NCBI GenBank assembly: GCA_018398765.1
Contig: JAHBMJ010002696.1
Location: 1 to 64,000 of the forward strand
Direction: 5' to 3'
Length of the DNA stretch: 64,000 nucleotides
Source of the DNA: Chromera velia
Taxonomy: Eukaryota; Sar; Chromeraceae
The position numbers were made by a program, and so were the translations under genes. The notes under the pieces were generated by a model. The model did not search any database. It was not told the DNA's origin and saw nothing but the letters and a program-made list of their open reading frames with translations. Each line of letters begins with the position of its first letter. The first letter of the stretch is position 1. Of the stretch, positions 2,437 through 50,105 are shown piece after piece.

Positions 2437-2525
<89 letters not shown>

Positions 2526-3925: not shown

Positions 3926-3929
<4 letters not shown>

Positions 3930-3967
<38 letters not shown>

Positions 3968-3969
3968 AT

Positions 3970-4005
<36 letters not shown>

Positions 4006-4020
4006 GGTGTGTGTGTGTGT
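3930..4020. repeat. TG dinucleotide repeat
   Basis: Near-pure TG repeat interrupted twice by short ATGG segments. It is intergenic and downstream of HSP60. Confidence 0.9.
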
Positions 4021-4685: not shown

Positions 4686-4798
4686 TTTAGTGTTTCTCTG
4701 GTCCTGTGTCGGGCCAGTATGCATCTTGCCTATAGGTATAGGTCCTGTCCATCTGCTACGGCCAATCTGTTACAAGCGCATACCCCTCGGACTAGGCG
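4686..4798 (+). repeat. 113-bp dispersed direct repeat, copy 1
   Basis: Starts TTTAGTGTTTCTCTGG and ends near GGACTAGGCG. It matches 5809-5919 with scattered substitutions and a 2-bp length difference. The two copies lie about 1.1 kb apart in the same orientation. No coding sense and no recognised element family. Confidence 0.75.
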
Positions 4799-5808: not shown

Positions 5809-5919
5809 TTTAGTGTCTCTCTGGTCCTTTGTCGGGCCAGTATGCATCTTGCCTAGGCATAGGTCCTGTCCGTCTGTTATGGCCAATCTGTTGCAAGCGC
5901 AAGCCCCTCGGACTAGGCC
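5809..5919 (+). repeat. 113-bp dispersed direct repeat, copy 2
   Basis: Second copy of the repeat at 4686-4798, sharing GGGCCAGTATGCATCTTGCC and the later segment GGCCAATCTGTT. Flanking sequence differs between the copies, so the repeat boundaries are fairly sharp. Confidence 0.75.
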
Positions 5920-6112
5920 GCCGCGCCTAGCTTATACTACTCCACGGTGGACAAAAATTAATACCTTTCATTCTCCGTGTGTTCGCGTGGTCAACTCTGC
6001 CTATCTATCTGGTTGGGTGTATCCCGTCATAATTAGAGCATGCATGCACTAGCATATAGCTGCATGGCGACTGCTGCAAACTGTCCTCCCGGGAAGCTGT
6101 CCCATTCTTTGC

Positions 6113-20050: not shown

Positions 20051-21171
20051 ATGCCGGCGACTCATTCCCGCAAAGTCGCGGGTCTCTTCCGCAAGAAGGC
20101 AAAGGAGAAGTTCGTGTCTATCGAAGAGGCCTTCAAAAAAATGGACCTGGACTCCTCCAAGGCCATTGGAAAAGTCGAGTTGAAGATCGCCCTCGTTCGC
20201 CTTCAAATCGACGGCGTTGATGCCGACGCCCTCTTTGACGAGCTGGATGCTGACGGATCCGGTGGTCAGCTAGGCACCAATCTGTCTGTCTATGCATCCG
20301 CATTACTGCCACGTACACGCTGAGCCTTCCTATACATGCCCTTTCAAGGACGAGTCTGCTTGTGTCATGCATTCATGCGCACATAGTGTACCCACATGCA
20401 CTACACGCCGACCTTGTACATGCATGCGTGCAGAGGTGACCCTTGACGAGATGAAAGGCATCGTTGAGGCTCTCCCTTCTCAGTCCCACCTCGGCTCTCG
20501 GTCAGACCTGGGAGGAGGGGGACGGCACGGGTCCTTGGAGCTGGACAGCGACGATTTCAGCAGCAGCCATTCAGGTACGCATGTCGGTGCATGGGTCCTT
20601 TGACTGACTTCGGACTCTCATACACCCGTCTACACACAGCAGGCGGACAATCGTTGTGCTTAATTGTCTTGGATGTCACCTTCATTCTCTGCATTCTTCC
20701 TTCATGCAGATCTCTCACGCTCCCTGGCGACCTCCCGCAAGCCTAACATGAACGTGAAGTCTTCCGGGGCGGCTGCCAAGTTGAAGTCTCACGCGTCGTT
20801 GAATTTGACGAGCAAATCCGGATTCAGTAATAGCGATGATGAGAGCAGTCTACAGAGTGAAAACTTAGACAGTCGGAAGAAGAATTCGTGGTCAGACATT
20901 CAGCGCTTTCGCAGTGTGCTTCGAACGTTCTTTCGAGCTGTGTACGACAAGTACGTGACCGAGAGAGACAAAAAGGACTGCGTGTCCCGCTTCGAGGTGG
21001 TCCAGCGTTCTTTGACCAAGATGGATCTCTCGAGAGACAAGAGGCTGGAGAGAGACGAGATCCAGCTGCAGATTGACAAATTGGGTCTCAAGAGCAAAAT
21101 TGAGGGAGGGGCCGAGGCAGTGATGGAAGCCGTGGAAGTGATTGCCTCAGGAGCCGTCAGGAGATTGAGCG
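20051..21171 (+). other. EF-hand gene, N-terminal exons 1-3
   Basis: Exons 20051-20264, 20434-20574, 20710-21171, all followed by phase 1 introns. Exon 1 carries a degenerate loop (DLDSSKAIGKVE) and the first half of a canonical one, completed in exon 2 as DADGSGEVTLDE. Exons 2-3 encode a Ser-rich spacer. Exon 3 then has a helical EF-like segment with loop DLSRDKRLERDE, which lacks Gly at position 6. Confidence 0.8.
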
Positions 21172-23208
21172 GTGGGTCAAGCGACTTCAAGAATGAAAAA
21201 GGGTTCTGTTTAGCTAAAAAAATGAAGATTAAAGCAAACTGATCGGCAGCTGAGAGTGAAAGTAGTGGGAATTTGTTCTGTGCCGACAGCTTAGAAAGAG
21301 ATCATCAGTACAGCGACCGGCTGTGCCCAAAGCCCCTCAGTCTATGTGGAGGAACCTAGGGCCCAAAGCAGGATGGAGCCTCTAAGAGGAAGAAGGGCTT
21401 GATTCCATATTTGAAGGAAAAAAGAAGAGAAAGAAGTATGAAGTCGGGGCACGGTGAGAGGCCGTTTCAGCGCCAAAGAATAAAAAAGAACAGAAAGACA
21501 GAAGAACAGAGACACGCCACACGGGAACAGACAAGACAACAGACATCAAGGACAATTCAAGTGGATGATTGGAAAGCACGTACCTGCAAATGAAGCTCCG
21601 ACCCAACCTGCATCTTCTCTTGTCCATTTTGTCTTCCTGCATGCTCTCTTGCAACTAGAAGTAAGGTAGATGCTTTCACCAAAGGAAAAAATTGTGTCAA
21701 TTTGTGCAGAGGTGAGGGTAGAGGCTTTTATCGAGGCAGCTCGTTGTCTGCTTCGTTCCCGCGTACAAAGATTCCGCCTCCACGCCGTCCGAAAACACGG
21801 GTCTCTGGCGAAGGCCTTCAAGGTAATGGACATAGACGGGGACGGTCGTCTGGATCAGAAGGAACTTGAGAAGGCGCTGCAGAAAATGGGACTCGGGGAC
21901 AAGGGGGAAGCCCGAGCTCTGTTCAAAGAATTGGACGCCAATAGATCAGGGCGTCAGTCTCTACTACCAGCTGTCTGTTGCCTTTTACACAAAACACTAA
22001 TTTTTTTTTTCTCCTTACTCGATCGGTCTCTTCTTTGGATTGTGTCTCCTCTCCCATTTTGCCTCTCCGTTTCGCACTCCAATGCGTTTCCGAATTGATC
22101 TGGAAAGGAGACAGCGGAATGCTCCTCCGGAATTCGCTTCTTCTCTCTCTCTCTCTCTCTCTCTCTGATGAATCCAGAACCCTTGATGCTAATTCGTCAT
22201 CTTCGTGTTTTCTTCCTTCTCCTTTGTTTTTGCTCGCGTTGTTACTCGCACATTTCCACATCTGTTTTTTTGCAGCAATCGCAGCGAACAAATATATTTT
22301 CTCTTTTTCAGACTTTTCCTGAACCCGTTTTTTCCTGTTTTTTTTTCTTCCGTGTGCTTGCTTTTTGATCTGCTAGCTTGCGTGCTTGCTTGTCTTCTCC
22401 TTCATTCTACAGAGATCAACTTGGACGAACTTATAGGGGATTCCAGGCAGAACTTCCAGAAACGTAAAAGTGGCGCTGTGCTTGACTTTCGTGAAAGCGC
22501 TGTCGACGAGCACGGAAGCCTCACGAAGGCCTTCAACGAACTCAACGTAAATGGAAACTCCTACCTGAGCGCGAAGGACCTGACCAAGGCTCTCAAAACT
22601 CTGAGTCTCCACAAGAGAGTGACGGCAGACGAGATCTGCGAAGACCTAGAGGTCAAGGACGGAAAAGGTGCGTGGGTGAGGGAGGGAAGGGGCAATGAAG
22701 GAAGATAAATGATCGTATGGACTTTCAAAGAGCGGAGAAAATCTTCCTTTGCACATACGCAGACACGCCCAATGCACGCTGCATTCTTTACTGTCGTTGC
22801 TGCTCTACTGCAGGCATTGCTCTTGATGAATTGTTGGGGTTGGAGGAAACGTCAAGCGACTCTGAAGACTTCAGTGACTCTGACAGCGACAGCGTAGATG
22901 TGCACAAGAGCAGGAACGCTCGGTCTGTGGTGCTGGACGCTGGCAAGTCCGCTCCCGTTGCTGCAAGTCGAGGGTCGGCACTCAGTGGGAATGCAAAGAG
23001 AAGGGGGCAGGGAAAGCTGGCGGACAAATTCCGCAAGAGGGCGATCAGAATGCACGGGTCCCTTGTGAAGGCCTTCGAGGTGATGGACCTGAACGCGAAC
23101 ACCGAGATCGAATTGCCGGAACTTGAGATTGGTCTCATTCGTTTGGGGCTCGAGAGCGGTCGGGAAGCCCGCGCTCTCTTCAAAGAAATCGATGAAGACA
23201 ACAGCGGA

Positions 23209-23248
<40 letters not shown>

Positions 23249-23951
23249 TGTCAGTCACTCAGTCAGTCACTCAGTCAGTCAGTCAGTCAGTCAGTCAGAC
23301 AGACAAATCTATTCTCTCTGTCGATTTCCATTAAGTATGCAACACGTCCCCTTTCAGCCTCAGCATGTTCAGGTTTCCAAGAAGTACTGAAAAGTCCCCG
23401 GTTTGATTTCCAATGGCCGGAATGATCGAAATGCTGGGTGCAGGGATAAGTCTCGAAGAGCTGTTGGGCGTCCCAGTCGACAACCTCCGCAAGCGCCGCG
23501 CCGGAGCAGTAGCCCGGTTCAGGGAGAAGGCCGCTCGAAAGTTCAAGGGACTGATGCAGGCGTTCAACGAACTGGACACGAACGGCGACGGGGTCCTCAG
23601 CCGGTCGGAGATGGAGAGGGCCCTCGACCGTCTGCGGCTGCGGGAGGAAATCGATGTCGACGAAATCTTTGAGGANTGGACGCTGGCAAGTCCGCTCCCG
23701 TTGCTGCAAGTCGAGGGTCGGCACTCAGTGGGAATGCAAAGAGAAGGGGGCAGGGAAAGCTGGCGGACAAATTCCGCAAGAGGGCGATCAGAATGCACGG
23801 GTCCCTTGTGAAGGCCTTCGAGGTGATGGACCTGAACGCGAACACCGAGATCGAATTGCCGGAACTTGAGATTGGTCTCATTCGTTTGGGGCTCGAGAGC
23901 GGTCGGGAAGCCCGCGCTCTCTTCAAAGAAATCGATGAAGACAACAGCGGA

Positions 23952-23991
<40 letters not shown>

Positions 23992-26900
23992 TGTCAGTCA
24001 CTCAGTCAGTCACTCAGTCAGTCAGTCAGTCAGTCAGTCAGACAGACAAATCTATTCTCTCTGTCGATTTCCATTAAGTATGCAACACGTCCCCTTTCAG
24101 CCTCAGCATGTTCAGGTTTCCAAGAAGTACTGAAAAGTCCCCGGTTTGATTTCCAATGGCCGGAATGATCGAAATGCTGGGTGCAGGGATAAGTCTCGAA
24201 GAGCTGTTGGGCGTCCCAGTCGACAACCTCCGCAAGCGCCGCGCCGGAGCAGTAGCCCGGTTCAGGGAGAAGGCCGATTTCCATTGAGTATGCAATATGT
24301 CCCCTTTCAGCCTCAGCATGTTCTTCAGGAATCCCGGAAGTGCTGGAAAGTCCACGGTTAGAATTCTAAGGGCCGGAATAGTCTAAATGCTGAATGCAGG
24401 GATAAGTCTCGAAGAGCTGTTGGGCGTTCCAGTCGACAACCTCCGCAAGCGCCGCGCCGGAGCAGTAGCCCGGTTCAGGGAGAAGGCCGCTCGAAAGTTC
24501 AAGGGACTGATGCAGGCGTTCAACGAACTGGACACGAACGGCGACGGGGTCCTCAGCCGGTCGGAGATGGAGAGGGCCCTCGACCGTCTGCGGCTGCGGG
24601 AGGAAATCGATGTCGACGAAATCTTTGAGGAACTGGACCTGGACGGCAGGCAAAGTCAGTCAGTCAGTCAGTCGGTGAGTCAGTCAGTCAGTCAGTCAGT
24701 CAGTCAGGCAGGCAGTCTGTGACTCAGTCAGTCAGTCACGGCGACGGGGTCCTCAGCCGGTCGGAGATGGAGAGGGCCCTCGACCGTCTGCCGCTGCGGG
24801 AGGAAATCGATGTCGACGAAATCTTTGACGAACTGGACCTGGACGGCAGGCAAAGTCAGTCAGTCAGTCAGTCGGTGAGTCAGTCAGTCAGTCAATCAGT
24901 CAGTCAGTCGGTGAGTCAGTCAGTCAGGCAGGCAGTCTGTGACTCAGTCAGTCAGTCAGTCAGTCAGCCAGGCAGACTGTGACTCAGTCAGTCAGTCAGT
25001 CGGTGAGTCAGTCAGTCAGTCAGTCAGTCAGGCAGTCAGGCAGGCAGTCTGTGACTCAGTCAGTCAGTCAGGCAGTGACTCCCTCCCTCAGTCGGTTACC
25101 TAGTCAGTCCGTCCGTCAGTCAGTCGGCATGGTGCTCAGAGAGGCCACCAGACAAAACGTATGTCAGTCAGTCATTGCCTACCGTCTCGGTCACTCACCG
25201 GTCCTCCCCCTCCTTGCAGAGCTGACGGTGGAGGACCTGACGGGTCTGTCTTCCTCTGCGCGTGCGTCATCCGGGGACACAGTGATGGGAGTGAAGAGAC
25301 GGGGGGAGAAGGTGAAGGGCGACCGGCGTCTGGCAGAGCAGTTCAGGAAGAGAGTGATCAAGATGCACGGGTCTCTTGTGAAGGCGTTCAAGGTGATGGA
25401 CCTGAATAACAGCAGCCACATCGAGTTTGCAGAGTTGGAGATCGCCCTGCTTAGGTTGGGGTTCGAGGGAGGACGGGAGGCACGGGCACTCTTTGAGGAG
25501 ATCGACGAGGACGACAGCGGCAGTCAGTCAGTCAGACAGACAGACACACATCGTCTACCTGCCTCTCTTCTCCAACTGCGTGCGTGTTTGAGAGCCGTGT
25601 ACTTGATTGACTGTTGGCGATATCCCTCCCTGCTGCGCATCTCTCTCTCTGCGTCTCTATTTTTGCGTCTCCCTCGCAGCCGTCATCTGATCTCAGATTG
25701 TGCCGGTACGTTGTTTTGAATACTCAACCATGAGACTCTTCGTTTCTGTGTGTGTGCAGAAATCAGCCTGGATGAGCTCCTTGGAGTGCCTGTGGACAAT
25801 CTGAAGAAGAGACGAGCAGGGGCGGTCGCCAAATTTCGGGAGAAGGCCGCTCGAAAATTTGACGGTCTCCGCGCCGCGTTCAAAGAACTGGACACAAACA
25901 ACGACGGCGTGCTGAGTCGAGGGGAGATGGACAGGGCGATAGACCGTCTGCGTCTCCGAGACGAAGTGGACGTGGAGGAAATCTTTGAGGAACTGGACCT
26001 CGACGGACGCCAGAGTCAGTCAGTCAGTCAAGTACTCAGTCAAGCAGCCAGTCAGTCAAGCTTTCGATCAGGCGCTAAGTATATCAAGCTGTCGAGCAGT
26101 CAGTCTCAATAAGTCTGTCGTTGTCAATAAACTGGCCAGGATTGCTCAGGCCACGCCAACTAGATGTCATTCGTTTTGCTGCTTGAATTAAGGTTTTTGT
26201 CTTCCTGACGTGACTTCTCCACGAAATCCTTTCCTGCACAGTCGGCAAATTCTGTGCTTCTTCCTGTCAGACGACACTCACTGGCTTCAAACATGCAACG
26301 GTGATTGCAGAGCTCACAGTGGCTGACTTGCTCGGAGGTCGACAGCAGTCGTTTGCGACATCGAGAGGAGACAGTGACTTTGACCTGGACAGCGACCAGG
26401 AGAGCGATCGTGGATTGAACAGACACGGTTTTTCCTCTCAACGAATTGGGGGTTCCGTTGGACTTCGGGAGGCTCCTTTCGAGAAACAGATCGGTCGGGA
26501 TGGATTCGGCAGACAACCAACTGAGTCCAAAATCTCGGCAGGAGATGGAAAGAAGAAGAAGCAAGGAGGAGCTTCTCGGCTTGTCTCGTCCTTCAGGAGG
26601 CTGGCTGCAAAGAAATGGGGGTCTGTCGTCGGAGCATTCGAGAAGATGGACCTCAGCAAGAACAAGAAGCTGACAGTAGAAGAGCTGAGCGTAGCGCTTG
26701 TACGCCTAGGGGTGGACATCGAGGCCAGAGCACTCTTCGAAGAACTGGACCATAACGGAGACGGAGGTGGGCAGGAGTGTGACATGGACATAAGCGTTTT
26801 TGGTGTGCCTCTCTCCCGAACCGTCAGCTAGGATTAGAACATATGGAGCGCTGTCCCTTTCATTCTATTGTTTGACCTCCGTTCGTCATCTTTTTCGGAT

Positions 26901-29900
26901 GCGGTTTTCATTCCGACTGCGTCTGTAATTCGATGCCTTTTTTCCGATTTTGGCTGGACATTCATTGGATTCACTGCACAAGTTTTTGGCTTGGTTCGTA
27001 TATTTTTTGCTCATAACTGTGCCTCTGCATCAACGTATGGGAGCTTCGTGCACGTCTATTCGTAGACCCATATATTAATACATGCTTACTTACATACCAT
27101 CGCGACTATGGAGACGCAAGATAAAATTTTGCATCCACAAATACATCCCCTTATGCATGCAGTTGCCACTCAGGACACATTGATGGCAGGTTCATGCACA
27201 TCTGCCCGCAAAAACGATCGGCGCATGTTGTACTCCACACCAGAAACACATACCAACACAACATATTAATATTGAGTCCGAATGAATAAATTTGCAGTGG
27301 TCACTCTGCACGAATTGATGGGCGCCTCGTACGAGACTCTGAAGGGTCGAAAAGCGGGGGCCGTGTTGCACTTTCGTGAGAAGGCCGAGCGAAGGTTTGG
27401 GTCTCTAAGACAAGCCCTCAACGAACTGGACACCAACGGAGACGGCGAATTAAGCAGACGAGAGATGGAGAGGGCCCTTGACCGTCTCGAACTCCGAGAC
27501 GACGTCAGCGTCGAAGAGATCTTCCAGGAGTTGGACCTGGACGGAAGCAATCGTCAGTCGACAAATGAATCAATCAATGTGACAAGATATGCAAATCATG
27601 ACTATGTGTACACGGATTTTCTGTGTTTAACAGTCCTGCAGACCTTGCATGAACCTTGACCAGATCCGTCGACGCTCTCTTTTTCAAATTATAAAAAGAC
27701 GCCTGTCTTTTGTCTCTTAATGGAGAAACACTAGAAATGATAGCGGATGAAAAAGGAAGATGACAGAGGCTGGTGCCGGCTGTGACTCTGGTGAAATGAT
27801 TCACAGTGTCTGCTGATCACTGGTTGGGCAACTACAGCGCTTAAAGATGGAATGCATACAGCGGACAGCATCAAATTGGGGAGAGAAAATGCACATGAAA
27901 TGATTCCGCAGAATGATGATACATGCCGATGCGTGTCCATTTGCAGGTCTCTCTTTGCTAGAGTTGACAGGAGAGGACTTTGAGGGAGATGCCGCGAAGG
28001 CCTCGGGGAATTTTCGAGTCTTCAGGGACCCCGCCTGGAAGGATTCTGCCCAAGGGACCCAAAGAAAAAGAGACAGAAGGGGGGAACAACTCGTGGAGGC
28101 ATTCCGAGACGAAGTCATTCGCCGTTGGGGTTCCCTTCCTGCTGCCTTCAGACGACTGGATCGGAACGACAACGCCTTCCTGGAGTGGCGAGAAATTGAT
28201 TCAGCGTTAAGGAAACTGGACGTTTCGGGAGTAGACAGCCGGGAATTGTTCGAGGCACTGGACGTCAACGACAATGGAGGTGGGTGGGTGGGTGGGTGTG
28301 CCTCAGTCCTTAGGTCTAGTCTTCTTATGCATACACGTACCAAAGTTAGAGTTGTCTCTCAGGTTTTAGTGCAGCCGTATTTATCCCTGGTTTTTTCATC
28401 CGTGCGTGTAAGCAAAAATACGGGTCTTCATCTGAACCATCTGCAGGGATCTCGGTGGAAGAGCTCATGGGTGTGCACCCCGATGTGCTGACCAAAAAGC
28501 GGACGGGAGCTGTGATGAAGTTCCGAGAGGCTGCCACAGAGAGATTCGGCACTCTCCGGCTGGCCCTGAAGGAGCTGGACACAAATGGGGACGGCGTGCT
28601 GAGTCGGGTGGAGGTCGAGAGGGCCGTGAAGAGCCTAAACCTCCAACACGACATCGATGCAGAAGAGATCTTTGACGAGTTGGATCTGTCTACAAAAGGA
28701 AGTCAGTGGGTTCATTGGGAATGTCCAGCGAAGGTCTCTGAAAACATTCCTTATAAGCAGGGAGCTAAAGCCATTGTGCATCTTTGTTCTCGCAATCCCA
28801 GAATCTCACGCTCTGTCTTTTTAGCGACCTCCTGATTGGGAAGAGCCATCTGCAACCAACGACAATCACATTCCATTCCAGCTGTTTGCCCGACAGTTTT
28901 TGTAAACTGCGTATTTCCTAGACTTTCCGTACACTGATCCGTCAGAACAGAGAGCAGCGAAAAATCTCCATTTGTAATTAACATTCAGGTATTTGACTGT
29001 CACACATGGATTCTCTCCATATCCCCGCAGAGATCCGTCTGAAGGATTTGACTGGAGAGGACAGAGAGGGCGCACTTATGGATGAGGTCAGACTGAGTGC
29101 CCGTCCGCACCAAGCGTCCTCCTCCAACGCAGGACACGCAGCGCGCAATGTGAGTCCTCAGGTGGCCCGATTCAGAAAGAAGGCAATCGCTCGATGGTCG
29201 TCTTTGCCAGCCGCGTTCCAGAAATTGGACTTGAACAACGACAAGCAGCTCGACAGGGCCGAATTGAAGATCGCGTTGATGCGCCTGGAGCTGGAGACCC
29301 TGGATGAGGACGCGCTCTTCGCAGAGCTAGATGTCGACCGCACAGGAAGTGAGTGAGTCTTTAAGGCAAAATTTTTTTTTTGCTGGTTACGCACTTTTCT
29401 CCATGCTGCTGTTGCCCGTAAAGCTCACAAAGAGGCCAAAAGTCATTTCCATTCACTCCCTTATCTCGATGAGTGCGGAGATTTGTCTGGGACGTATTGT
29501 GTATCCTTAAATGCGTGAGATTTGTTGTATTGATTGCGTTTTCTTCTTGCACATGCGGTTCTTCTCTCACGTGCAGCGATCACGATGAGCGAGCTGATGG
29601 GCGCCTCTCCGCAGAGACTTCGGCGAGTGCAGCCAGGGGCCGTTCGCGTGTTTCGAAAACGTGCGGAGGACCACTGGGGTTCGATGCGCGTTGCGTTCAG
29701 AGAGATTGACAAGAACAACAGTGGGCATATCAGCAGGAAGGAACTGGATGCCGCGCTGGACAAAATGGGATTGGAGGGAACCGTGGGGTCCGATGAGCTC
29801 CTCGAGGAGTTGGACCTCAATGGAAGTGGAAGTGAGTCTGTATGGATGGCCATATTTTGACTTCCTTTTGTGTAGAAATATGTGTCGTTCCTCTTCGCCC

Positions 29901-37604: not shown

Positions 37605-37639
<35 letters not shown>

Positions 37640-40600
37640 TGTGCATGTATGAGCGTATGTCTGTGTGCAGGCTCACGTTCCGCGAATTTTCCGCTTTCGT
37701 GATCACCACCCTTCTTCTGCCGGAGAGTCTCCAGAGCTTGGTCCGCCCTCTCTTCTCGGCGGTTCTCAAAAGCGCAGACGGCAGGGTTTCTCCCGACGAG
37801 TTGTTTTCTTTTCTCAACAAGGACACGGTCTCTCTGGACCTCTTCGCTCTGGACCCCTCCACTAGGGAGAAAATGAAAACGGCGTCGCAACAAATCCTCG
37901 CACACTTCAAGTGAGTGGACTCTTTTCCATCGCAAAAGAAACATTCAGTGCAAAAGAGAGGGGTTCTCTTTTCAGTCGGCGCTCCTCGTTTGCTCTCCAC
38001 GTCTAAATTTGATCACCATGCAGCTTTCAAAAGAACAATAAGGCGCACAAAGGTCCATTCTCTTGTCACTCGCATTAATGTCTTTCGTATAGGCAGGTCA
38101 TCTGTCTGCTTCTCAGCAGATTTTTGCATCTGTATGTACACATCTCTTTGCATAAAAATCTTGCATAATGTATGCAGATCCATGGACGCCCTACTGAACG
38201 ACATCCACCTACAGGTCGACGCGGAAATCCCAAAGCAGAAACTTCTGCACGCACTCTACCGACTCCCCATGACCGTGTGTGATCCAGAACTCCTCCGTGG
38301 GGCCTTCCACTGGATTGTCGGGAGAACAGGGGGGTCTGTGGACCTGCGTGAGTTCACTGCGCTCTTGCACGCCCTCACTGACCACGAGTACGACATCGGA
38401 CTGCAGACTCGAGCTCCCAGGACTCCTCAAATGCAGAAGCGAAAAATGTCGCCGGAGGAGGGCGCTCTCTTACAGAACATCCGTGCCCATCTGTTGAATA
38501 AATATGGGAGTTTGAAAACGGCTTTCGCTTCTTTGGAGACCGGCACAATTGGGGGAGGGGGCAATGACCGCATGCTCGCGAGAGAGGAGTTTATCGGTAG
38601 GGTCACCTCCCTCGGCGTCTCGTATCAGAAAGCAGCGAGATGTTTCGATGTACTAGATCTTGACACAGACGGAAAGGCCACCATCAACGAGCTGCACGTC
38701 CTCCTCACCCTCACACCCGACATCCACATCGTGCAGCGTGCCCGCGCCCTGCTGCTCTTCGACAAGGGGGCTTTCCCAACTGTGAAGGACGCAGTAGATT
38801 CTGCTTTCTTTGAGGCGGCGCGAGACAACAGGCCCGCCGTGGATGCAGATGAGTTCGTGGAGTTGATGAAAGTTTTCCGCTTCACTCAGGAAGAGGCTCG
38901 AAGACTCTTCAGTGCTGCTGACACAGATCGGGACGGTGCTGTGACAGTCGAGGACATCGTGGCGGCCGTGCGGTGTCCCATCTCTCCTCGGTCGGCTGCG
39001 ACTGCAATTCAGCAGAGTCACTTAAACGGCCTGGAGGCCTCTGTTGATGTCCTGAGACACCGATGGGGGTCTGTTCAGAAAGCATTTGCTGCACTGGAAG
39101 AGGTCAATGGGACGGGAGTCAGAGGGTCGGCACACAGGGGTGAGGCCAGTGGGGCTGCAGGGGGGGATTTGTTCAAGCCCGCTATCTGGCTATTGGACGA
39201 ACGCGGCTTTTCCAGGTATGCGGCAGGACTGGAGATGAAGCGAAGTGAACTTCGTACCCTGTTCGCCTCCCTGGACGTCTTCTCTGACGGCATGGTCAAT
39301 GCAGAGGAGGCCGAGTCCCTCCTGCAGGGCGTGGAGAGTCAGGAGATGGAAGCCCTCGTGAGGGAGTGTGAGTTGGAGGGAACACGAATCGGATTCGGCA
39401 GCGGGCTTCCTCCCGGGACCTTCCCTGTCGCTGTGGGAAGGGAGTCACCGGACGGCAGGCGTCGTTTTCATCAGAGAGTAAATTCCTTCGATGCAAGAGT
39501 TGTGCTCTCTCTGTTCCATAAAATCGTTTCGAAGCACTTCCCCTCAGTCGAAATTGCCTTGAGTGCTCTAGGCGTGCCGTTTGATCAACGCCTCTCCCGT
39601 CCAGAATTCATCGCGGCGCTCAAAACTTCGGTCGTGGGGACGGACCCAGAGTTCCCTTTCTGGCGGCAGGAAGAGTTGTTCAACGCACTCGATCGAAACC
39701 AACAAGGCTGGGTGAAGCTGCAGGAACTGGCAGTGGCTTTGAGGGACGAGGGCGGGAATGCAGCGGCACTCGCTGCCTTCCCTCAAGGCTACGGTCTGGT
39801 GAGGGACGGCCGTCCTCTGACTATCTGGAGTCTCGTTGACTGGCTCCGAGTCCGCATGAGAGAACGGTATGGCTCTGTGGCCACAGCGTTTGCCTGCATA
39901 GACACCCACAACGTCGGGCAAGTGACAATGCCCCAGTTCCGCCAGGCAGTGGAGGCTCTCGGGTTGATGGACGATGAGTCGGACGGTCTTGCTACGAGAA
40001 TCGCAGCCGTGCAGGTGCACGCCTCGAGACGGATGCACATTCCTGGAGCGTTTGTGCCGAATCTGTCCGACCAAATCTTCGAGGCGATGGATACACGGGG
40101 CGTTGGGCTGCTGACTGCAGAAGAGATGCAGGCTGCGATGCTAGTTGATCTCTACTCTCTCGAGCTCACAGGCTTCATCAGATCGGAATTCATCCAAACA
40201 CACGGAACTGTCCAGAGGGCATGTGACCATATGGCTCCATATTATTGGGTTGCACCCCATCGCAAAGTGACCTGTGGCGAATTCCAGAAGGAGATTCTCC
40301 GGGTACTTCCGACGAGAGACGGAAAGGCCGGAAGCAAGGAGCACGACTCTCGGTTCTTCGCTTTGATGGGTCACGTCGCATCGTTCCTCTCGGCCGTAGA
40401 TAGGGACAGAGACGGGTCGGCCGACTGACTACACGAAGGCATTACTGTCTTCTCCTCTTCTCGTGTGGATTGCACGTGCTTTCTGTCTTTATTTCTTTCC
40501 TCTGCATTTTTAGATGCTATGCGTTGTTTGTGCTGTGCTGAGGAGCTCACCTCAACTTTGTCTTTCTTTTCTTTCAGCTCTACTCCAATTTGTCTTCAGG

Positions 40601-40906
40601 CCAGTATTCAGAAAAACTCTTGCAACCCCTTTTCATTTTATCCAGGCGATTGTCCCCCTCCTCCCTTCCCCTGGTCAATCCTCATGGTGCGCCAAGGATG
40701 CTTTGCTGTAAATTGGTGTATGGACGCAAAATCAATCTCTGCCTGCCTGCCTGCAGATACATAACCCCCCACGAATTCCGGTGGGCCCTCTACCAGTACG
40801 CCGTGGAGACGCGGGAGTACGAGGAGGGATTCCTCTCCAACGTCGAGAACCTCGCATTCGAGCTGCGGACACGGTGCGTCAGCAGAGGAGATTCATTCTC
40901 TTTGCA

Positions 40907-40940
<34 letters not shown>

Positions 40941-43900
40941 CGTGTGTGTCAGGATGGGAATCGACGTTTTTCCCGGTTTTCTTACTTGTATTTCTCCTTA
41001 TTCCTCGGCCCATGCATGTGACTGCAGGTACAACTCCCTCCGAGATGCCATATGGACTGTCGATCACATCTACGTGGAGTCTCCCGCCCCCAACGCGACA
41101 CTGGGCCCCTCCAGACAGGGCAGCCCGAAGAAAGCACGCGTGCTCACGCCAGACGAAGTTCGGCGGAGGGCCAAAAAGATCGAGGAAGGCGATCATTCTC
41201 GCAGCAGCAGCGATGAGGGAGAAGGGAAGACGCGTAACAAAAAGAAGGGGGGTGCAAATTCAAGGAGAGAGGTGGGAAGAGGTGATCTGGGGATTCTGGA
41301 AATCACAGTCAACCCAGAGACCCTACTGTCTCCTGATGAATTTACTGCAGCACTGGCTGCATTGCATATGCCTCCAGGACTTACGCGCTACATCTTTCGG
41401 AACATGGACACGAACCATGAGGGCAAAGTGTCTCTATCGGAGCTCCGCTCAGTGTTGCAGAGAGCAGCAGCTGGTCCCAGAACACCGGCAGATCCTCTCG
41501 ACATACCGGAACTCCTAGATGTCCTCAAGCAGACAGAAGACGCAGCAGCGAAGTCTGCAGGGGACATCGGAGGGCCAGCAAGCGCTTCCTCAAAATTGGA
41601 CCCTCAAGGTCATTCCTGCCTTCCTCCCTTCCTTCCTTCCTTCCTTCCTTCCCTCCCTCAAACAGCGCTTTCATTCTGAGGCTCATGGCATGACAGGCTG
41701 CACACACGGACAAGTTTCAGCCTCTCCCTTCTGGAATGTTGTTGTTGAAGTCTTTCTGTTGCATTTGTGGAGATACTGTTGCTCCCCCCCCCCTTCTTCC
41801 TTGCGCCCAGTCCCGAAGTGCCTCAGAAATTTTGATTGAGTTCCTTCACTCTGCGTTGTCTAACTGCATGGATGGATGCAGCTCTGATGATCGAGCTTCG
41901 TGAGTTCATCTTGAGCAAGTACGAGAACATCGCGGCCTGTTTTGTGGACCTCGATATGGATTCCGATAGGTCCCTCTCCTTCATGGAATTTGACGCGGCA
42001 CTGAGGCGACTGGGGCTTCCGGGTTCATACAGCCACCCGCTTTTTGCCCTTCTGGACAAGAGCAACGACGGTATCGTGACGATCTCTGAACTCTGGCAGG
42101 GCATCCGAAAAGCTTCAAAGGAAGCAGCACAAGCCCTTCAGAAACCAATTCTTTCCCGTCTCTCCCAATCGACGCTGGTTGTCATCCAGAAATTGATGAG
42201 TGAGTACGGGAGTGCAGACAAACTTTTCTCTCTTCTGGATCTCAACTCATCGGAGTCGATTTCCGAGGATGAGCTGCAAAGTGGAGCGAGACGATTATGG
42301 AAAGCGGCTGAGGTGGAAGACAGAAAAGGTGTGGTGGACATTCTCACCCCTGAGGTGATTTCAAGCGTCTTCCATGAGATTGACGTCAGCCAAGACGGGA
42401 GGATTGAGCGGAAAGAACTTCACGAGATCTTCGTAGAGGTGAACGCTTTTGTTGAACAGGAGAAGGAGAGGCAACGGCTTCTGGCAGAACACAAAGGATT
42501 TGGAGACCCTTCTGGCCGTCTCGCAGGTATGGCCCGTGCAGACAACGCAGCAATGTCGTTCACGTCCAAACTTGATGGGTGCTTGAAGCCGGCAGCGTGT
42601 AGCTGCGACTCTACTCCGCTCTTTGCATTGCGACGGCGCATTCTCATTCGCAACAGCGACATGCGAAAGCCGATGGAGATTTTACAGCAATTTGACGACA
42701 ACCAAGCTCTCCCACGCCGCGAGTTCCTCACACTCACGGGACGCCTCGGGGGCACCCACTCTCTTTCGTATGGCTGTTGTGAGGGGCCTGTTGTCTTTGT
42801 GCTTTTGGCCTTGCTTGCTCGGCTTGAGAAAGACTACCTGCAGAGTCACGGGGTCGGGGGGGCAGGCCAGGGGCAGGGACAAGCTGCGGTAGCCTCGACA
42901 TCCCCCGAACCAGCAGTGAAGGTTGGGGATCTCACGCGTTGCCTCTTGGCGACAGACTGTGAGTTGGTTTCTCAAATGACCGACAAGTTGCTTCTGAAAG
43001 GGAGCAGACAGATAGACTTCAGCCGTCTCTGGCAGATGAGCGGCCTGACCGCATCTGCCCAGGTCGACAGACGCGGGTGGATCGAAATTTGCGGAGCCGC
43101 CCGTCTCCCCACTGAATTGGTCCCAGTTGCCGACGGACTCTTTTCTCTCCTGCTGGTTGAGAGCGTCGTCCCTCTGATGAACATGAGAGATGGAGGCCGG
43201 CCTCCCCCTTCGCCCCCCGCTCGTATCTCTCTGGACATTCTCGAACGTGCTTTGAGTCTCTCCATGAGGGGTCAAGTCCTTTCCTTGTTATGGGACGTCA
43301 TCGACATAGGCGTCTTGCCCACATGGACCGACCAGCCAGGAGTGGACCCGATGGCGCTGAGGGACCAGTTCGCGCATCCAGGAGAACTCCATCAATTCAT
43401 GCAGAAACGAATGCGGCTTGGAAGCAACCCCCTGCGCATAATTTCTCTGTTCACTCTGTTGAGAGGCACACAGGCAAAACCTCCCGCAGAAGTGCAGGAA
43501 CAATTAGGAAAACAAAACCCGCCACTGTACGTGACAGGTCGCGATCTGGTGGACGCTTCCGATGCCTGTTTCAGGTCAGTCGACGGGAAAGACCAGACAG
43601 GTCTACTGCAAAAGAATGCTCACAGGACAGTCGAACTCTTATATATGAGAATACGGTGATTTCTCCAAATGCCGCCCTTCGCTGCATTTCTTGACTGAAT
43701 TGCTTTCCTTTGATTTCCAGTCATTTATCCGCCGATCTAAAATTACGCAAGCAAAGACGATGATGTCACTTTTTGGTGTTGCATGGTTTTGCAGATACGC
43801 AGCTGTCCTCGCCTTCCAAGTCTTCTTCGCCGACGGCTTCTTTGCGGACCAGCTGTACGTCGCCACGGCCGAGGACCTCTTTCGTTCGTTGCCCTCTGCA

Positions 43901-44244
43901 TCTGCCGGGGCCCTTCTGAACGCAACGGGCCCGAGTCTGAATGCGCCTTCGCTTGCGTCATTGAGGAGATCCCTTCTCGGGTGCGCCTCCTCTCGGCTGG
44001 GACAGGCAGCTGCCAACCTGTGCAACCCCATGTACATAGCACAGCAACAAGAGGGGGGCAACAGCGATGGGTCTGTCGTCGTGGCGACAGCCGACAACTG
44101 TGTGCATAGGTCCGTCAGGCAGCTCCATCGATCGATCGATCAGGAAGGACGGTCTGTCTGTATTTCACACCTTCGTTCCTTTCTTTCTGTTTTCTGACCT
44201 TTCTGGAAATGATGGGTCGCAGCGAAAGGGTTTTCATCACTCTC

Positions 44245-44284
<40 letters not shown>

Positions 44285-47200
44285 GCTTGTAGAGGCTGTC
44301 AGAGAGCTGGCGTTGAAGCAACAGACAGCCGCGGGTCCTTCTGATGCTCTGTCTGGCGCTGCTTTCGGAGACAGCACCGTCCGTTTGCTGTCCGACAACG
44401 ATTTTTCTCGGGATGAGCAACCTGTGGATTGGCTGTCTGTCCGTGACGCCCTTTCTTTCTGTGGCCAGCTGACGGGAAGAGACGTCGCTCTGGCACGCTC
44501 TCTGATTCGAAACGCTCACGTCGACGTGGGAGAGCTCAACAGCAAAAACCTCCATGAAGCCTTGGCGGAATCAGCGGCCATCGGGGGGGGGGAGTCACAG
44601 CCGTGGGCGGTGGTACAGCGGTCAGTCAGTCGGTCACAAGGTTGTTGAAACGTAATTGAATTGAGCACTCGCCTCCCTATTTAAAAAAATGAAAATCCTG
44701 ACATTCGTGTCTCCACCTGACATCCCACACAGAATTGTACTGACCCGAATTGGGTTGGATTGGATGACTTTCCACTTTTGCCAAAGAGATCGATGCCGGA
44801 CTTCCCCAAGAAAGTCAATTCCTCTGCATGAGAACCTCCATGTGCGCATGCATCGATCGATACATGTATGCATGCTGATGTATGCACCAGCGTGCAAGTA
44901 ATTATGTTGCTTCGATCCGTGCCTGTGCAGCTCCCACCTCGGCGCAGCGCTTGCTCGTCTGCATTTTGAGATGGACGCGGGTGAGGTCGCGCTCCTCGCC
45001 CGTTACCTAGACGCATCGAACACAGGGTCGATCCACTTAGAGAGCCTTCGGGGCATTCTCGAACACGTGCACGGACCCGTCCGAGACCTTGAGGTGCCTG
45101 CTGCCAACCGCACTCTGGCAGAGGCCACAATGGCGATGTCCCTGCAGGGGGGAGCCGCCCTCGACGCACAAGCGCAGGCGGGAATATCCGAGGCTCAACT
45201 CCTCGGAGACTCCCTCCATGCGAACGCGAGGACAGGGGAACTTCCGGGACATGCCACTGCAGGGTTGAATGCCCTCCGTGACCTCTGTCGCATGGTTCGG
45301 CTCCGTTGTCCCTCTTTGCAGTCTGCGCTTCTCCGTTTCGTTTTCTCTGCCAACCCCCAGCTGAAAGGTGCGGTTTCGAACGTCAAATTCGAAGACCTCA
45401 AGTCCGCACTTCCCGAAGGCATCAGACTCGACGCCTTCAAACGTGCCCTCGTCGAGCTGAGGGTCCTTCCACCAGCACGGAACGCGGCAGCAAAGGCGGC
45501 ACTAGGCGGTGTGGACGGAACGGAGGCAGACGGACCCATATCGCGACTTGTCGCCCGTGCCATCGGATTTCTTCTTGGCGTCGGCCCGGCAGAGGCGCAG
45601 GCGTCAGTTGGAGTCAGAGGCTCCCCCATCAGCCCCTCAGGGGGAAGCAGGCGGGCACTGAACTTCAGCGTTTTTGCGGACTGCCTGAACGAAACGTACA
45701 GCGACACTCTCGCGCCTCTCCGTCCCCTTGCAGAGAAACTTTTCGACCAGTCTCTTCCGTTCAAAAAAGTCGTCGCGTCCATCGACAAACACGCCTTTAT
45801 CAAGACAGTCCGTGTTCCCTTGGAGCAACAGACCTCCACACAAGCACAGACAGATGGTCACCCCATGATGGGTGGCTGGTCTGTGCTTGAGGTCCGCGCC
45901 TTGTCTCCGGAGGGCCTGCAGCTCTTATTGCAGGACGTAAATATGCAAATGGACGTCAGCATCTGTGACGGACTGATCTCCTCGCTCAGAAGCATGAGCG
46001 GGCACGTGGAAACGGAGCCAGCGCCACAGCAGGAGGGCGCACCTGCAAGGTCGTGGATCTCGGTGGAAGATTTCATGGCCGAGCTTCGGCATCTGGTCGC
46101 ACAGGTTCCACTGCAGCGTCAGATGAGTGACGCGATCCAGCGGCTGTTCAAGGCACTGGACAGAAGCGAGAACGGGGCAATCGAAGCGGAAGAGCTGAAG
46201 AGAGGGCTCATGGCTTTTGGTAGGTCGTCTGCATCTTCTCGTCTCCACCTGCTGCTCTGCTTGGTATCGATCTGTCTGGTTCCCTTGTGTATCATTCTGT
46301 TTTATTTATGTCGTCGGCATTGATTTCTGTACACATTATGAATCTCTCCCTCTGTTCTGACTGACGCATGCAGGCCAGAGCGTACCGGACGAGGAGATTG
46401 TGCGCATCCACGCGCAGGCCGACTCGAACGGAGACGCCAGAATCGATGCTGCGGAGTTCCAAGCTCTCATGGCACCAGCCGTCCAGACAGCCATGCAGCA
46501 GGACGACGCGTTCTTCTCCCGTCTCCGAAACTCCTTCAGGCGAGGCGATCGAAACAAGGACGGGAAATTGACCGAGCAGGAGGCGGCAGACGCCCTCGCA
46601 GACCTGATGGGAAAGCCGATGGCCAAGGAAGAGGTCTCGGCGCTCTTCAGGGCGGCAGACAGGGATGGAAATGGGACGGTGGACGCCGACGAATTTTGCA
46701 CTTTCCTCTCTTTGTCAGGCATCGAGGGGGACATTCTGGTTCGACACCAAGGGTCGGGCGCTTCCCACGGGGGGCAGCAGAGGGGTCCGGCAAGGAGGGG
46801 GATGCAAGGGGGATCGGAAGTCTCCCAGCTGTGTGAAATTGCCAGGCAGAAGATTCGATATTCCCGGGCCCTCTCCGCAGACGCCCTCATCCCTGTCATC
46901 CTCGGCATTCCTTCCGGATTCCGAAGGTTGGAGCACGTCAATCCGTTGCTGTCAACGGCCGCAATGGACGCGGAGGGCTTCGCGGGTCTTGGCTTCGACC
47001 CCTCTGGCCTTCTGGTGGGTGATAAGGGGCTGCAGCGATCAGTGGCGACCCCAGGCCTCCAGATGGAGCTGGCGAGGGCCGCCTGGGCTTCGATGGGCCC
47101 GAATTCGCGGGATGCGGACGCTGGTGGGGGGTGCTGTGGTTGCAGGAAGGGGGGGAAGAGGGACGTTGACGAGCCCCTCGCAGTGAGCCGTGGGAGTGTC

Positions 47201-49067
47201 GGGGGCGCGTCCAAGGCCAGCTGCCTGGTTGCACGCGTGTCGGTTGCAGCGTGCGTGCCGAAATGTGAAAGCGGAGTTGAGGGTCAACAGCTCCGCGTGA
47301 GCTTGTGGAACAGACGGGAGAGGAAATACATGGTCAGTCAGATTGAGAATGACAGTCAGTGTATCTGTGTAGTAGTCCTCGAGAATCGTCTTTTTTTCTT
47401 CTCTTCTCTGACGAGTCAGACAGGAAACCTTGAAGCCTGCGCATCATTCGTGTTTTTTTCGTCTCATTTTTGTGTCCGCTGCTACAATTTCCGCATATGG
47501 TCTTCTTGTCTGTGGTCTCTGCAGGGCAACTCATGCTGCTTCTTAGCGTCAAAGTATGCGCAGCCTGTCGCACATGTCGCACCCGACGGCAGCGGGGTTA
47601 CCGGGGGAGTCTCCGGACTGGACGCTGAGTATTGGACGTTCACTGCTGGGAGTGCAGAGTCGCTGTTCAAGGCAGAGGCCGCAGCAGGGACTGCAGACCC
47701 TGACGTTGACATCTGCTTTGAGCTGGCGCTCCTGCTCAGACCCCCGGGCGCGGGGCCCTCAGTGCCGCCACTTCTAGTCTCTGCTGGGCATGCGCTGCTT
47801 CCCTTGCAGACTGCTTTGGAGTCTGCGAGGCGCGCATGGGAGACGGGGGCAGGGGGCAAGGGTCTCTTGGCCAAAGGAGGAAAGGGGAGGCGGGGCTCAA
47901 AGGGGGTTCTCCTCGAAATGCAAGCGGGGACACCGATGTCCCCGACGGTCTATGACGCAGCGTGGCGCTCTCTGGCCACTGCTTCCGGCCTGCCCAACAC
48001 GATTGTGTCGGAACTCTCTGCGCTATTTGCGCCGCCACCGGAGACGAAGGAGGACATCAGGGCAGCCAAACGGAGAGAGCAAGAAGCTGCAAAAGCAGCG
48101 AAGAGAGAACAGTCACTAGCCAGGCAAAAAGCAAGACAGGAAGCAAGGGCAGCGAAGGCAAAAGCAAGAGCGAAAGCGAAGGCTGCCAGGAGAAATCAGC
48201 CAGGGGAGGGGGAGAGGGGGGAAGTTCCTGCAGAAACGGACGGAGAGGGAGAGGGGGGCCCGGAGGAATCGGTGGCGGCGCCCGTGGGAGGAGCGGCTGC
48301 TTCCAGAGGTCTCTCCCTTGGCCCTCTTCCTCCTGCTCTGGCGACACCTCGCGGTCCTCGTCTCTTTGTTGAGACTGCCATTCTTGCCTCTTTGCCAGCT
48401 GCAGTGGCAGCACAGACAGGCGCTCTGCCTCCTTTCATTTCCGTTCCTCTATCCGTGTTAGAGGCCCTTCACGTTTTCAGGGCAGAGCTTGCAGAAGAGA
48501 TCCGCCTGCTTCAGTCTCGTTCCATGACTGCCGAGACAGATGTCGAAACAACAGCCGGGACCTCCCGTCGGGAAGAGGAGGAGCGCAGGCGGAGAGAAGA
48601 AAAGGAAAGAAAGGCGAAGGCAAAAGCTGAGGCAAAGGCAAAAGCCAAGGCAAAAGCGAAAACAAAGCCCCGAGGCGGCCTTTTTGGAAGGAAGAAAAAT
48701 CAGAACGGGGCCGGTGTAGAGGGAGCAGAACGAGAACAGAACGGTGACGCCACTGAGAGAGAAGAAGACAATGATGGCAACATGACAGAGGCAGCAGTGA
48801 CAGACGGAGAGGGAATGGCCCAATCTCAAAGGGTCACAAGCCAGACGCAGCACCCCACAGGGAACGCCACTGCATTTGCGCCACCATCGGGGGCCCTCTC
48901 ACTTCAGAGGAGTTGGGATCGGGCTTTTGCCTCCCCTCCCTGTGTGAACATCTGTCTCGTCACATTCCCTCGCATTATTCGCTCGCCTGCACTCTTACAG
49001 GTACCTACGTGTGTACAGTTAATGGGATGTGTGCATGCGTCTGTTCATCAAAGATTTCTTTCTTTCC

Positions 49068-49105
<38 letters not shown>

Positions 49106-50105
49106 CGCGGTTTCATTCATTCATTCTTTCTTTTTGTTTTCGTTCTTTTTCTGTTTTCTCTCGCGTTCTTCGCTTCCTTCCTTCCCTCCCTACGGTGGAA
49201 GTATCTACTCATGGAGACTGACAGCGATGGCGCCTCATAGTCATAGTCCTTCCCTTCCTTCCTTCTCTTCTTCTCGTGGCATGTACGCGCACGTGTGCAG
49301 GCGTTTCTGATCGGATGGACGCACCGGCTAGCTGCACTGAAGACCTCTCAGAGGTGAGTGCCTCTCTTTCCCTTCCTCCCTCCGTCTGTCCTTCTGCTGT
49401 GTTTGTCTGTATCGACATTTGTTTGTGCCTTCAGATAAATCTGTGTTTGTGCTGAGATTTCTCTGCATGGTGTTTGCTACTGACTTTTCTTTTAGCTTCC
49501 CTCTATCTTCGAAGCATGAGCACCGACTTGGAAGACTTTGATGGCACTGTTCCTTCTTTCCTTCTTTCATGCACGCTCAGTCTCGTCATTTGTGCCCGAT
49601 TCCATATTCTGTCTTATCCTCGTGCTTTCCGTACTAAAATGGATGAAAAAAACATTTGCCTCCCAATTCTCTCATCTGCAGGACTCCGGAGACTTTGAAG
49701 GCGATCTTCAAAGACATCGCGGCCCGCCTCTGGCTGTTCGTCTCTCAGTCTAGAGTTCCTGCCGAGGTGCTCCTAGCAGAAGGGGGAGCGGTGGCGGGCA
49801 GCTGTGGGGACTTTTCTCAGGACTTTCTCGTCTTTGCACAGGCAGGAGCGGGAGGACCTCAGACGCAGCTGCAGCTGCAGGGCGCACTCGGGGGAAAACT
49901 CGCCAAGGCGGCGGTGGAAGCGAAGGGGGTGGGGGGGCGGCCGCCTGAGGGAAGTGTTGACCTGACGGCAGGCTCCGAGCGGGAGCTGGCTGACTGGTTA
50001 CGGAAGGCCGCAACAGAGAAGCACATGACGTTCCGCCCCCTGGAAGTTTCAGAAGTCACAGTCGATATAATGCCTCTGGCAATTGACCTGGACAGGGACG
50101 GATAG
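20051..50105 (+). CDS. Giant multi-EF-hand calcium-binding protein, about 5,985 aa, 43 exons
   Basis: Start ATG at 20051 (MPATHSRKVAGLFRKKAKEK), stop TAG at 50103-50105. I placed 43 exons by GT-AG borders and checked every junction: phases agree all the way, with exon 7 assumed to be 255 bp where an N interrupts it. The protein is built from a repeated unit, FR..A...(Y/W/F)GSL..AF..LD, then an EF loop, then a second EF loop ending in a helix. Such chains bind Ca2+ through Asp/Asn/Glu at loop positions 1, 3, 5 and 12. No signal peptide or membrane segment is seen, so a cytosolic, cytoskeletal or ciliary role is possible. Large axonemal EF-hand proteins of the EFCAB6 kind are the nearest concept I know, but this is not a homology claim. 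Block-by-block exon coordinates are given in the next entries. Confidence 0.82.
22934..23533 (+). repeat. 600-bp exact duplication, copy 1
   Basis: Covers most of the B-type exon 22814-23209, its GTCA-rich intron and the first 90 bases of the A-type exon at 23444. I find no difference from 23677-24276 at an offset of 743 bases. Confidence 0.85.
23210..23302 (+). repeat. GTCA repeat starting at a 5' splice site
   Basis: The donor GTCAGT of the exon ending at 23209 is the first unit of a GTCA array with occasional GTCT and CTCA variants. Reading through gives a false Ser-Gln-Ser-Val repeat. Confidence 0.9.
23676..23676. other. Single N at a sequence join inside an EF-hand exon
   Basis: The A-type exon starting at 23444 runs identical to 24400-24631 up to this N. 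It then changes abruptly into a copy of the middle of the preceding B-type exon. This looks like an assembly join; the expected last 22 bases of the exon are missing. Confidence 0.9.
23677..24276 (+). repeat. 600-bp exact duplication, copy 2
   Basis: Second copy of 22934-23533. It begins inside a B-type exon without its acceptor and stops inside an A-type exon at GAGAAGGCCG. There it joins a diverged copy of the upstream intron (from ATTTCCATTGAG, compare 23326). As assembled it cannot splice as a normal exon pair and is left out of the gene model. Confidence 0.85.
24655..24738 (+). repeat. GTCA repeat starting at a 5' splice site
   Basis: Starts exactly at the donor of exon 24400-24654 and ends where a duplicated EF-hand fragment begins. 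Confidence 0.9.
24739..24854 (+). pseudogene. Truncated EF-hand exon fragment embedded in GTCA repeats
   Basis: Matches the 3' 116 bases of the A-type exon 24400-24654 (GDGVLSRSEMERALDRL onward) but lacks the 5' half and has no convincing acceptor. Two residue changes are visible against the parent: Arg to Pro in DRL(R/P)LRE and Glu to Asp in IF(E/D)ELD. Like the parent it is followed directly by GTCA repeats. Probably a by-product of unequal exchange within the repeats and not a used exon. Confidence 0.7.
24855..25130 (+). repeat. Long GTCA-rich tetranucleotide array
   Basis: About 275 bases of GTCA with GTGA, GGCA, GTCT and related variants, in higher-order blocks such as CAGGCAGTCTGTGACTCAG that recur. 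Intronic, between the EF fragment and exon 25220-25522. Confidence 0.9.
32410..35085 (+). other. EF-hand gene, exons 22-26: first copy of a duplicated exon block
   Basis: Exons 32410-32536, 32919-33139, 33415-33801, 33966-34077, 34379-35085, with intron phases 2, 1, 1, 2, 1. Recurring features are ALLERFLSLSDAMTMLKR at a phase 2 junction, a block ending in LVQHAE, and GVPLKDR followed across the next phase 2 intron by LTFTEFSSVVAG. EF-type helices remain but most loops are degenerate. The last exon regains RAKEKFGSLESAF and ends in a canonical half-loop, LDVDGSGS. Confidence 0.8.
35501..37910 (+). other. EF-hand gene, exons 27-32: second copy of the duplicated block
   Basis: Exons 35501-35545, 35791-35872, 36081-36415, 36582-36875, 37236-37347, 37671-37910. 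The order mirrors the previous block: AILERFFSISEGLQCLQR matches the first exon there, LLQHSE matches LVQHAE, and AMPLDTR then LTFREFSAFVIT matches GVPLKDR then LTFTEFSSVVAG at the same phase 2 intron. The first exon is split here by one additional phase 1 intron (35546-35790). Confidence 0.8.
40905..40949. repeat. TG then AG repeat just after a donor
   Basis: Lies in the intron between exons 40757-40873 and 41028-41608 of the EF-hand gene. Confidence 0.85.
44246..44280. repeat. TG repeat forming the 3' end of an intron
   Basis: A pure TG run of about 35 bases directly precedes the acceptor GCAG at 44281-44284, in place of a pyrimidine tract. Confidence 0.9.
47525..50105 (+). other. EF-hand gene, exons 41-43: possible C2-like region, Lys/Ala-rich helices and C terminus
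   Basis: Exons 47525-49000, 49301-49353, 49682-50105. The end of the preceding exon and the start of this one (CESGVEGQQLRVSLWNRRE, ICFELALLLRPPG, LLVSAGHALLPL) have a beta-rich pattern that could be a C2-like sandwich; this is only a guess. Two long charged segments rich in Lys and Ala (RQEARAAKAKARAKAKAARR and KAKAKAEAKAKAKAKAKTK) likely form extended helices. The protein ends with IDLDRDG, the first half of an EF loop, then TAG. Confidence 0.75.
49068..49109. repeat. TC then GC alternating repeat in an intron
   Basis: A TC run passes into about nine GC units, a sequence able to adopt Z-form DNA. It lies in the intron between exons 47525-49000 and 49301-49353. Confidence 0.85.

Follow-up and report, generated by a model that had tools for sequence, protein, structure and literature searches.

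Does a 30-kb stretch of the Chromera velia genome encode a single giant EF-hand protein, or do several neighbouring genes merely look like one? The question is raised by positions 20051-50105, on the forward strand, of the window analysed here, which is the first 64,000 bases of a 90,421-base contig (C2658). We consider it somewhat better than an even bet that this stretch is one gene for a calcium-responsive EF-hand scaffold or linker with a predicted length of about 5,900 residues. The support for its unity comes more from homology between its parts than from the agreement of its intron phases. As a single protein it would be several times as long as EFCAB6, which has the longest EF-hand array among the best 60 of 440 matches to solved structures, and it could be a calcium-controlled structural element. 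Chromera velia is a free-living relative of apicomplexan parasites, and such a protein would offer a concrete way into the calcium control of shape there.

Extent and unity of the gene model

A Viterbi model combining splice and coding signals finds a chain of exons from an ATG at 20051 to a TAG at 50105. The existence of this chain, claimed earlier in a sequence-only reading, is thus upheld, but its exact count of 43 exons and 42 introns is not: our conservative final model has 41 exons, 40 introns and 5,900 residues, and the model as assembled has 44 exons and 6,100 residues, the roughly 200 extra ones coming from a suspect duplication beside an N. Upstream of exon 1 there is a stop in frame at 19970, with no ATG in between. 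When the Viterbi run was confined to 19,451-50,700, it returned 20051-50105 with 40 exons and 6,009 residues at two intron penalties; a third penalty gave 38 exons and 5,934 residues. Coding statistics were taken from the open frames of the stretch itself together with 19 of 21 segments picked by hand. The splice tables, with a donor table that permitted C at intron position 3, were chosen manually, as were the exon edges 32919, 35085 and 49000. Four short exons (20, 25, 26 and 40; Table 1) were also added by hand, and the donors 26767 and 28280 were shifted to sites that restore an EF loop. Under-penalised gene models, which strung the whole window together as a single false gene, were rejected.

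The exons themselves were largely recovered by a cross-trained model, for which the training set consisted of 19 exons of a related array on another contig (C2846), a kinase-like gene on C3589 and long frames on C2894. At each of three penalties (-10, -14 and -18), 37 of the 41 final exons were overlapped by more than half. At -18 the model reproduced 26 exons, 25 of 40 donors and 32 of 40 acceptors exactly and ended at 20051 and 50105; at -10 and -14 the chain ran through to the end of the stretch. Its score at -14 was 1,996; the reverse strand scored 535, and three random first-order Markov sequences, whose chains leave the end without a stop, scored 275, 278 and 326.

The agreement of phase at every intron had been taken as very unlikely by chance. 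On its own this argument carries little weight, as random sequence also yields phase-consistent chains, of 54, 62 and 63 exons, and a loose, under-penalised model linked 594 'exons' over the 64 kb. Phase 1 is found in 27 of the 40 introns, including all of the first 19, an excess that is the expected outcome of duplicating exons with phase 1 at both ends. The array illustrates how a long protein can be built up by exon duplication in one fixed phase. Since splice sites in phase are so easily found, the model could be a false join of neighbouring genes, such as an array gene at about 20-32 kb followed by at least one more, or a gene whose ends lie elsewhere; we regard this as rather unlikely.

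Several observations do weigh against a single gene with these ends. When the whole window was run at eight settings, 20051-50105 stood as a separate gene only once. At six settings it was fused to sequence on one flank or both (at five of them in one chain covering almost all of the window, at the other in a chain that ended at 50105), and at the last it fell into three pieces, 20051-29356, 29585-37351 and 38182-50105. The exons were stable over the eight settings, with 34-37 of the 41 overlapped, but the gene ends and the unity of the gene were not. Forcing a break into two genes costs 16.0 at 24,350, 22.1 at 38,000 and 31.5 at 32,150-32,600, each figure including the 24 charged for the extra end and start, and the costs near 24.35 and 38.0 kb therefore fall below that penalty. 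The joins at 43.6, 44.1, 44.6, 47.3, 49.0 and 49.4 kb are supported by coding signal and splice sites only, and coding scores fall slightly below zero for three of the four hand-added exons. The absence of in-frame stops is no extra proof either, because the model forbids stops within exons. Moreover, in genome searches that scored just the best candidates, exon 24 (in its non-module part) and exons 31, 37 and 39 found no counterpart on C2846.

A false join is opposed first of all by exon 24, which by itself combines sequence of the array type with sequence of the downstream type. In searches of the whole genome (an assembly of 177.8 Mb in 4,040 contigs), its residues 1-79 matched exon 30 (44%, E 2.2e-5), its residues 95-235 matched exon 31 (30%, E 2.9e-6) and its end matched array modules such as that at 20069-20263 (43%, E 1.3e-5). 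Aligned with exons 30 and 31 joined, exon 24 spans their junction (32%, E 9e-29). A longer alignment between internal repeats 1 and 2 (26%, 94 gaps in 612 columns, E 1e-42) contains the hand-added exons 20, 25 and 26 and reaches, weakly at that point, the transition near 32 kb between the final array module and what follows it. The junction and repeat alignments were made with composition correction and filtering switched off, which flatters their E-values. Of the two positions at which the sequence-only reading had imagined a split, the one near 38 kb is thus opposed by exon 24 and the one near 32 kb less strongly.

The EF loops offer a second line of evidence. Fourteen of the 40 introns cut an EF loop that, once spliced, has at least five of its six key positions (12 did so before two donors were picked for this), whereas only 4.0% of random positions in the same protein cut such a loop. 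Canonical EF loops are rejoined in this way at 35085/35501 and 40415/40757. By contrast, the split that the model itself placed at 29.4 kb cuts a canonical EF loop within the regular array, and for this reason we consider the model's own splits unreliable. The interval 50.1-51.5 kb was exon-free at all eight whole-window settings.

The length of about 6,000 residues given earlier is approximately right (5,900-6,100), but an exact value is precluded by an exact 600-base copy, intron included (22934-23533 = 23677-24276), which begins right after a lone N at 23676. Further near-copies in the 23.4-24.9 kb region are 94% and 98% identical, and the difference between the conservative and as-assembled models is confined to this region. 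Most simply, the exact copy beside the N is an assembly fault, and otherwise a very recent duplication; a fault is favoured because the other module duplicates have dS of at least 1.5. The whole locus could, in principle, be a decaying or misassembled tandem array with no working gene, as the exact copy adjoining the N and the simple repeats held by the introns might suggest. We find this extremely improbable, given that the visible fault is limited to about 23.4-24.9 kb, that long open exons such as 38178-40415 are present and that between modules dN is low and dS high or saturated. Among exon pairs more than 45% identical (21 of 46, the 25 pairs at 45% identity or less being excluded), dN ranges from 0.15 to 0.55, and dS is 1.5 or more, or saturated. 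The reading frame of the duplicated exons is under purifying selection.

EF-hand modules and layout of the predicted protein

Residues 1 to about 1,850 form a regular array, in which each module consists of a conserved helix-like stretch, FRxxAxxxFGSLxxAF, and then an EF-hand pair. The next 2,000 residues or so contain looser EF-hand modules, with a segment of about 600 residues present in two copies, and the C-terminal remainder contains three or four more EF-hands together with long stretches without a known domain. The Pfam models PF13499, PF13405 and PF00036 scored above cut-off in several of ten exon pieces, in which no non-EF family passed. These curated profile matches, together with the module matches, place the protein in the EF-hand superfamily.

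A starting module profile, built from 16 array exons, found 30 modules at E <0.05 (E-values for one sequence), compared with two in 11 control sequences. After several rounds of refinement, into which control matches over threshold were also fed (two in the first round), 37 modules were found against one in the controls. The 37 cover 2,717 of 5,916 residues, or 46%, a lower bound since degenerate EF-hands may escape; on this 5,916-residue numbering, coverage is 90% for residues 1-1869 and 44% for 1870-3932, zero for 3933-4918, complete for 4919-5047 and zero again beyond. The protein had been described as made almost wholly of EF-hands, a view that this coverage does not bear out. A Pfam search of four non-EF pieces gave no match, nor did a search of the Protein Data Bank with one piece of the tail. 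A likeness of the tail to nephrocystin-4 was considered and dropped, no support having been found. At its very end (50060-50105) the protein reads DLDRDG before the stop, which resembles an EF-hand loop cut off halfway and gives the impression that one more unit has disappeared.

Strict calcium-ligand loops, canonical for the superfamily, number 25 (23 before two donors were refined), compared with a mean of 0.06 and a maximum of two in 500 shuffles; calcium binding is predicted. Between residues 440 and 1669 two kinds of module, A and B, alternate. The first loop is fully canonical in all six B modules and in none of the six A modules; the second is canonical in five of the six A modules (six after donor refinement) and in one of the six B modules. 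This count covers 12 of the 18 array modules, those starting at 6, 199, 288, 355, 1671 and 1773 having been left out, and not all of these six show the alternation. Fisher values for the alternation are not independent evidence because the modules arose by duplication.

Relatives, known EF-hand systems and possible roles

A relative lies in the same genome, at 66249-78968 of C2846, where about 21 modules of this type form a second array with a similar exon pattern and phase 1 in 19 of 22 introns. Its rough model enters unrelated sequence and spans a 4.4-kb gap upstream, and the downstream exons tested found no counterpart there. A few modules each were found on C855 and C379. Genome searches that scored just the best candidates matched exon 31 solely within its own gene; exon 37 gave itself and one marginal match, and exon 39 itself and 41 weak matches, many of them to its charged stretch. 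On C2894, a rough model of 66001-76000 combines one array-type EF-hand module (71857-72030) with sequence that looks helicase-like by eye, a putative fusion. A scan of prokaryote genomes gave at least two loci, both resembling ordinary EF-hand proteins. In the assembly itself a family search detected no psbA, and there were 58 matches of the light-harvesting kind, in keeping with Chromera velia. In titles and abstract openings of the literature, no such gene was named among the matches listed.

The EF-hand fold, for which the Pfam EF-hand models match our protein, is shared with calmodulin, centrin and calcium-dependent protein kinases. Those three have four EF-hands in a small protein or in one regulatory domain and no long array; the 5,900-residue model is neither small nor limited to four EF-hands. 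The ciliate protein Tcb2, likened to our protein by description only, is also small, unlike the 5,900-residue model. As a protist EF-hand protein reported to assemble or contract on calcium, it provides an idea of mechanism only (PMC12661445, PMC13035854).

A more instructive comparison is with EFCAB6, a microtubule inner protein with multiple EF-hands from the cilia and sperm of mammals, where it is an inner-junction addition on doublet microtubules (PMC8595878, PMC10663601), reportedly without an orthologue in Chlamydomonas (PMC10663601). In both proteins, EF-hand-like units whose loops are in part degenerate are strung into a long array. A search of the Protein Data Bank with the module profile places five EFCAB6 sequences at the top (among the best 60 of 440), and the best EFCAB6 score is about twice that of calmodulin, compared with about 1.4 times with a control profile built from nine ordinary EF-hand pairs of the same genome. 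This could suggest that our protein is an orthologue of that flagellar microtubule inner protein. However, the control profile itself puts EFCAB6 in second to sixth place, which takes away the basis for claiming special kinship. The ranking mostly reflects repeat number, because long arrays sum many weak matches: the starting profile gives 12 and 11 rows in two EFCAB6 chains, most of them too weak singly, and no EFCAB6 stretch passes alone. An orthologue would, in addition, be expected near 1,500 residues with the array throughout, whereas the model here has 5,900 residues with modules in 46%. Orthology is therefore improbable. The contention that this protein has far more EF-hands than the known large axonemal proteins is borne out insofar as they are many, 30-37 modules against 12 and 11 rows for the roughly 1,500 residues of EFCAB6, a rough comparison since thresholds differ. 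By analogy, EFCAB6 comes closest to a precedent for an array of this sort in a structural role (PMC8595878, PMC10663601).

What might such a protein do? The serial EF-hand pairs, the conserved lead-in stretch of each module and the many pairs with one canonical and one degenerate hand suggest a rod or scaffold over a plain sensor. It is tempting to propose a calcium-responsive scaffold or linker, probably cytoskeletal, in which calcium bound at many sites would alter the angle and the exposed faces of successive EF-hand pairs; the altered pairs could then change the shape of the chain or its binding to partners, and the unique tail may serve as an anchor. Both the scaffold role and the calcium-driven movement are inferred. 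Of the spring or scaffold suggested by the sequence-only reading, the scaffold remains plausible, whereas the spring is speculative. In its boldest form, the protein could be a calcium-actuated rod made of a single chain, with about 25 sites in nearly 6,000 residues and an alternating binding hand, which calcium would shorten or stiffen and which would be anchored by a tail for which the genome searches gave no second copy; this is a long shot. Alternatively, 25 strict loops in a single chain could make a high-capacity calcium buffer with no structural role. The many degenerate loops make this very improbable, and it would leave about 1,900 residues without detected EF-hands unexplained.

Features of the locus and its surroundings

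Table 1. Predicted exons and other features of the EF-hand locus (positions in the window)
Feature	Position	Strand	Basis or remark
Whole gene, 41 exons, 5,900 residues (conservative)	20051..50105	+	splice/coding model; ends vary with settings
Exon 1, start codon and first EF-hand module	20051..20264	+	
Exon 2	20434..20574	+	
Exon 3, module match	20710..21171	+	module profile
Exon 4, EF-hand module	21710..21952	+	
Exon 5, 255-nt module	22413..22667	+	
Exon 6, A-type module	22814..23209	+	
Suspect assembly stretch, its exons omitted from conservative model	23444..24399	+	N at 23676 and exact copy
Exon 7, 255-nt B-type module	24400..24654	+	
Predicted exon inside 200-base near-copy (98%), omitted from conservative model	24708..24854	+	
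Exon 8, A-type module	25220..25522	+	
Exon 9, B-type module	25760..26014	+	
Exon 10, A-type module, donor refined to restore EF loop	26311..26766	+	
Exon 11, B-type module	27298..27552	+	
Exon 12, A-type module, donor refined	27947..28279	+	
Exon 13, B-type module	28447..28701	+	
Exon 14, A-type module	29031..29348	+	
Exon 15, B-type module	29577..29831	+	
Exon 16, A-type module	30020..30322	+	
Exon 17, B-type module	30702..30962	+	
Exon 18, module	31199..31504	+	
Exon 19, last module of regular array	31795..32088	+	
Exons 20-21 (32410-32536, hand-added, coding score -1.7; 32919-33139), internal repeat 1 begins	32410..33139	+	
Exons 22-23 (33415-33801, 33966-34077)	33415..34077	+	
Exon 24, uninterrupted; matches exon 30, exon 31 and array modules; split canonical EF loop at end	34379..35085	+	
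Exons 25-26 (35501-35545, 35791-35872), hand-added; exon 26 coding score -1.1	35501..35872	+	
Exons 27-30 (36081-36415, 36582-36875, 37236-37347, 37671-37910), internal repeat 2	36081..37910	+	
Exon 31, 2.2 kb, EF-hand pairs	38178..40415	+	
Exons 32-33 (40757-40873, 41028-41608)	40757..41608	+	
Exon 34, EF-hand pairs, then non-EF sequence	41882..43574	+	
Exons 35-37 (43795-44109, 44285-44620, 44931-46219), one EF-hand at end, otherwise without recognised domain	43795..46219	+	
Exon 38, last strong EF-hands	46374..47332	+	
Exons 39-41 (47525-49000; 49301-49353, hand-added, coding score -1.7; 49682-50105), tail without recognised domains	47525..50105	+	

The introns of the model have unusual donor sites. 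C stands at intron position 3 in 23 of the 40 donors (counted before two donors were refined), the commonest donor hexamer is GTCAGT (14 of 40), and 38 of the 40 introns have GCAG at their 3' end. Seven introns (at 23210, 24655, 25523, 26015, 30963, 44621 and 47333) carry at least two GTCA units at the donor, possible tandem donors 4 bases apart; repeats of the GTCA type match many other contigs, with 373 matches in all. Elsewhere in the window, a partial gene for a TCP-1/cpn60 chaperonin lies at 1125-1859 on the forward strand (PF00118, E 2.3e-10).

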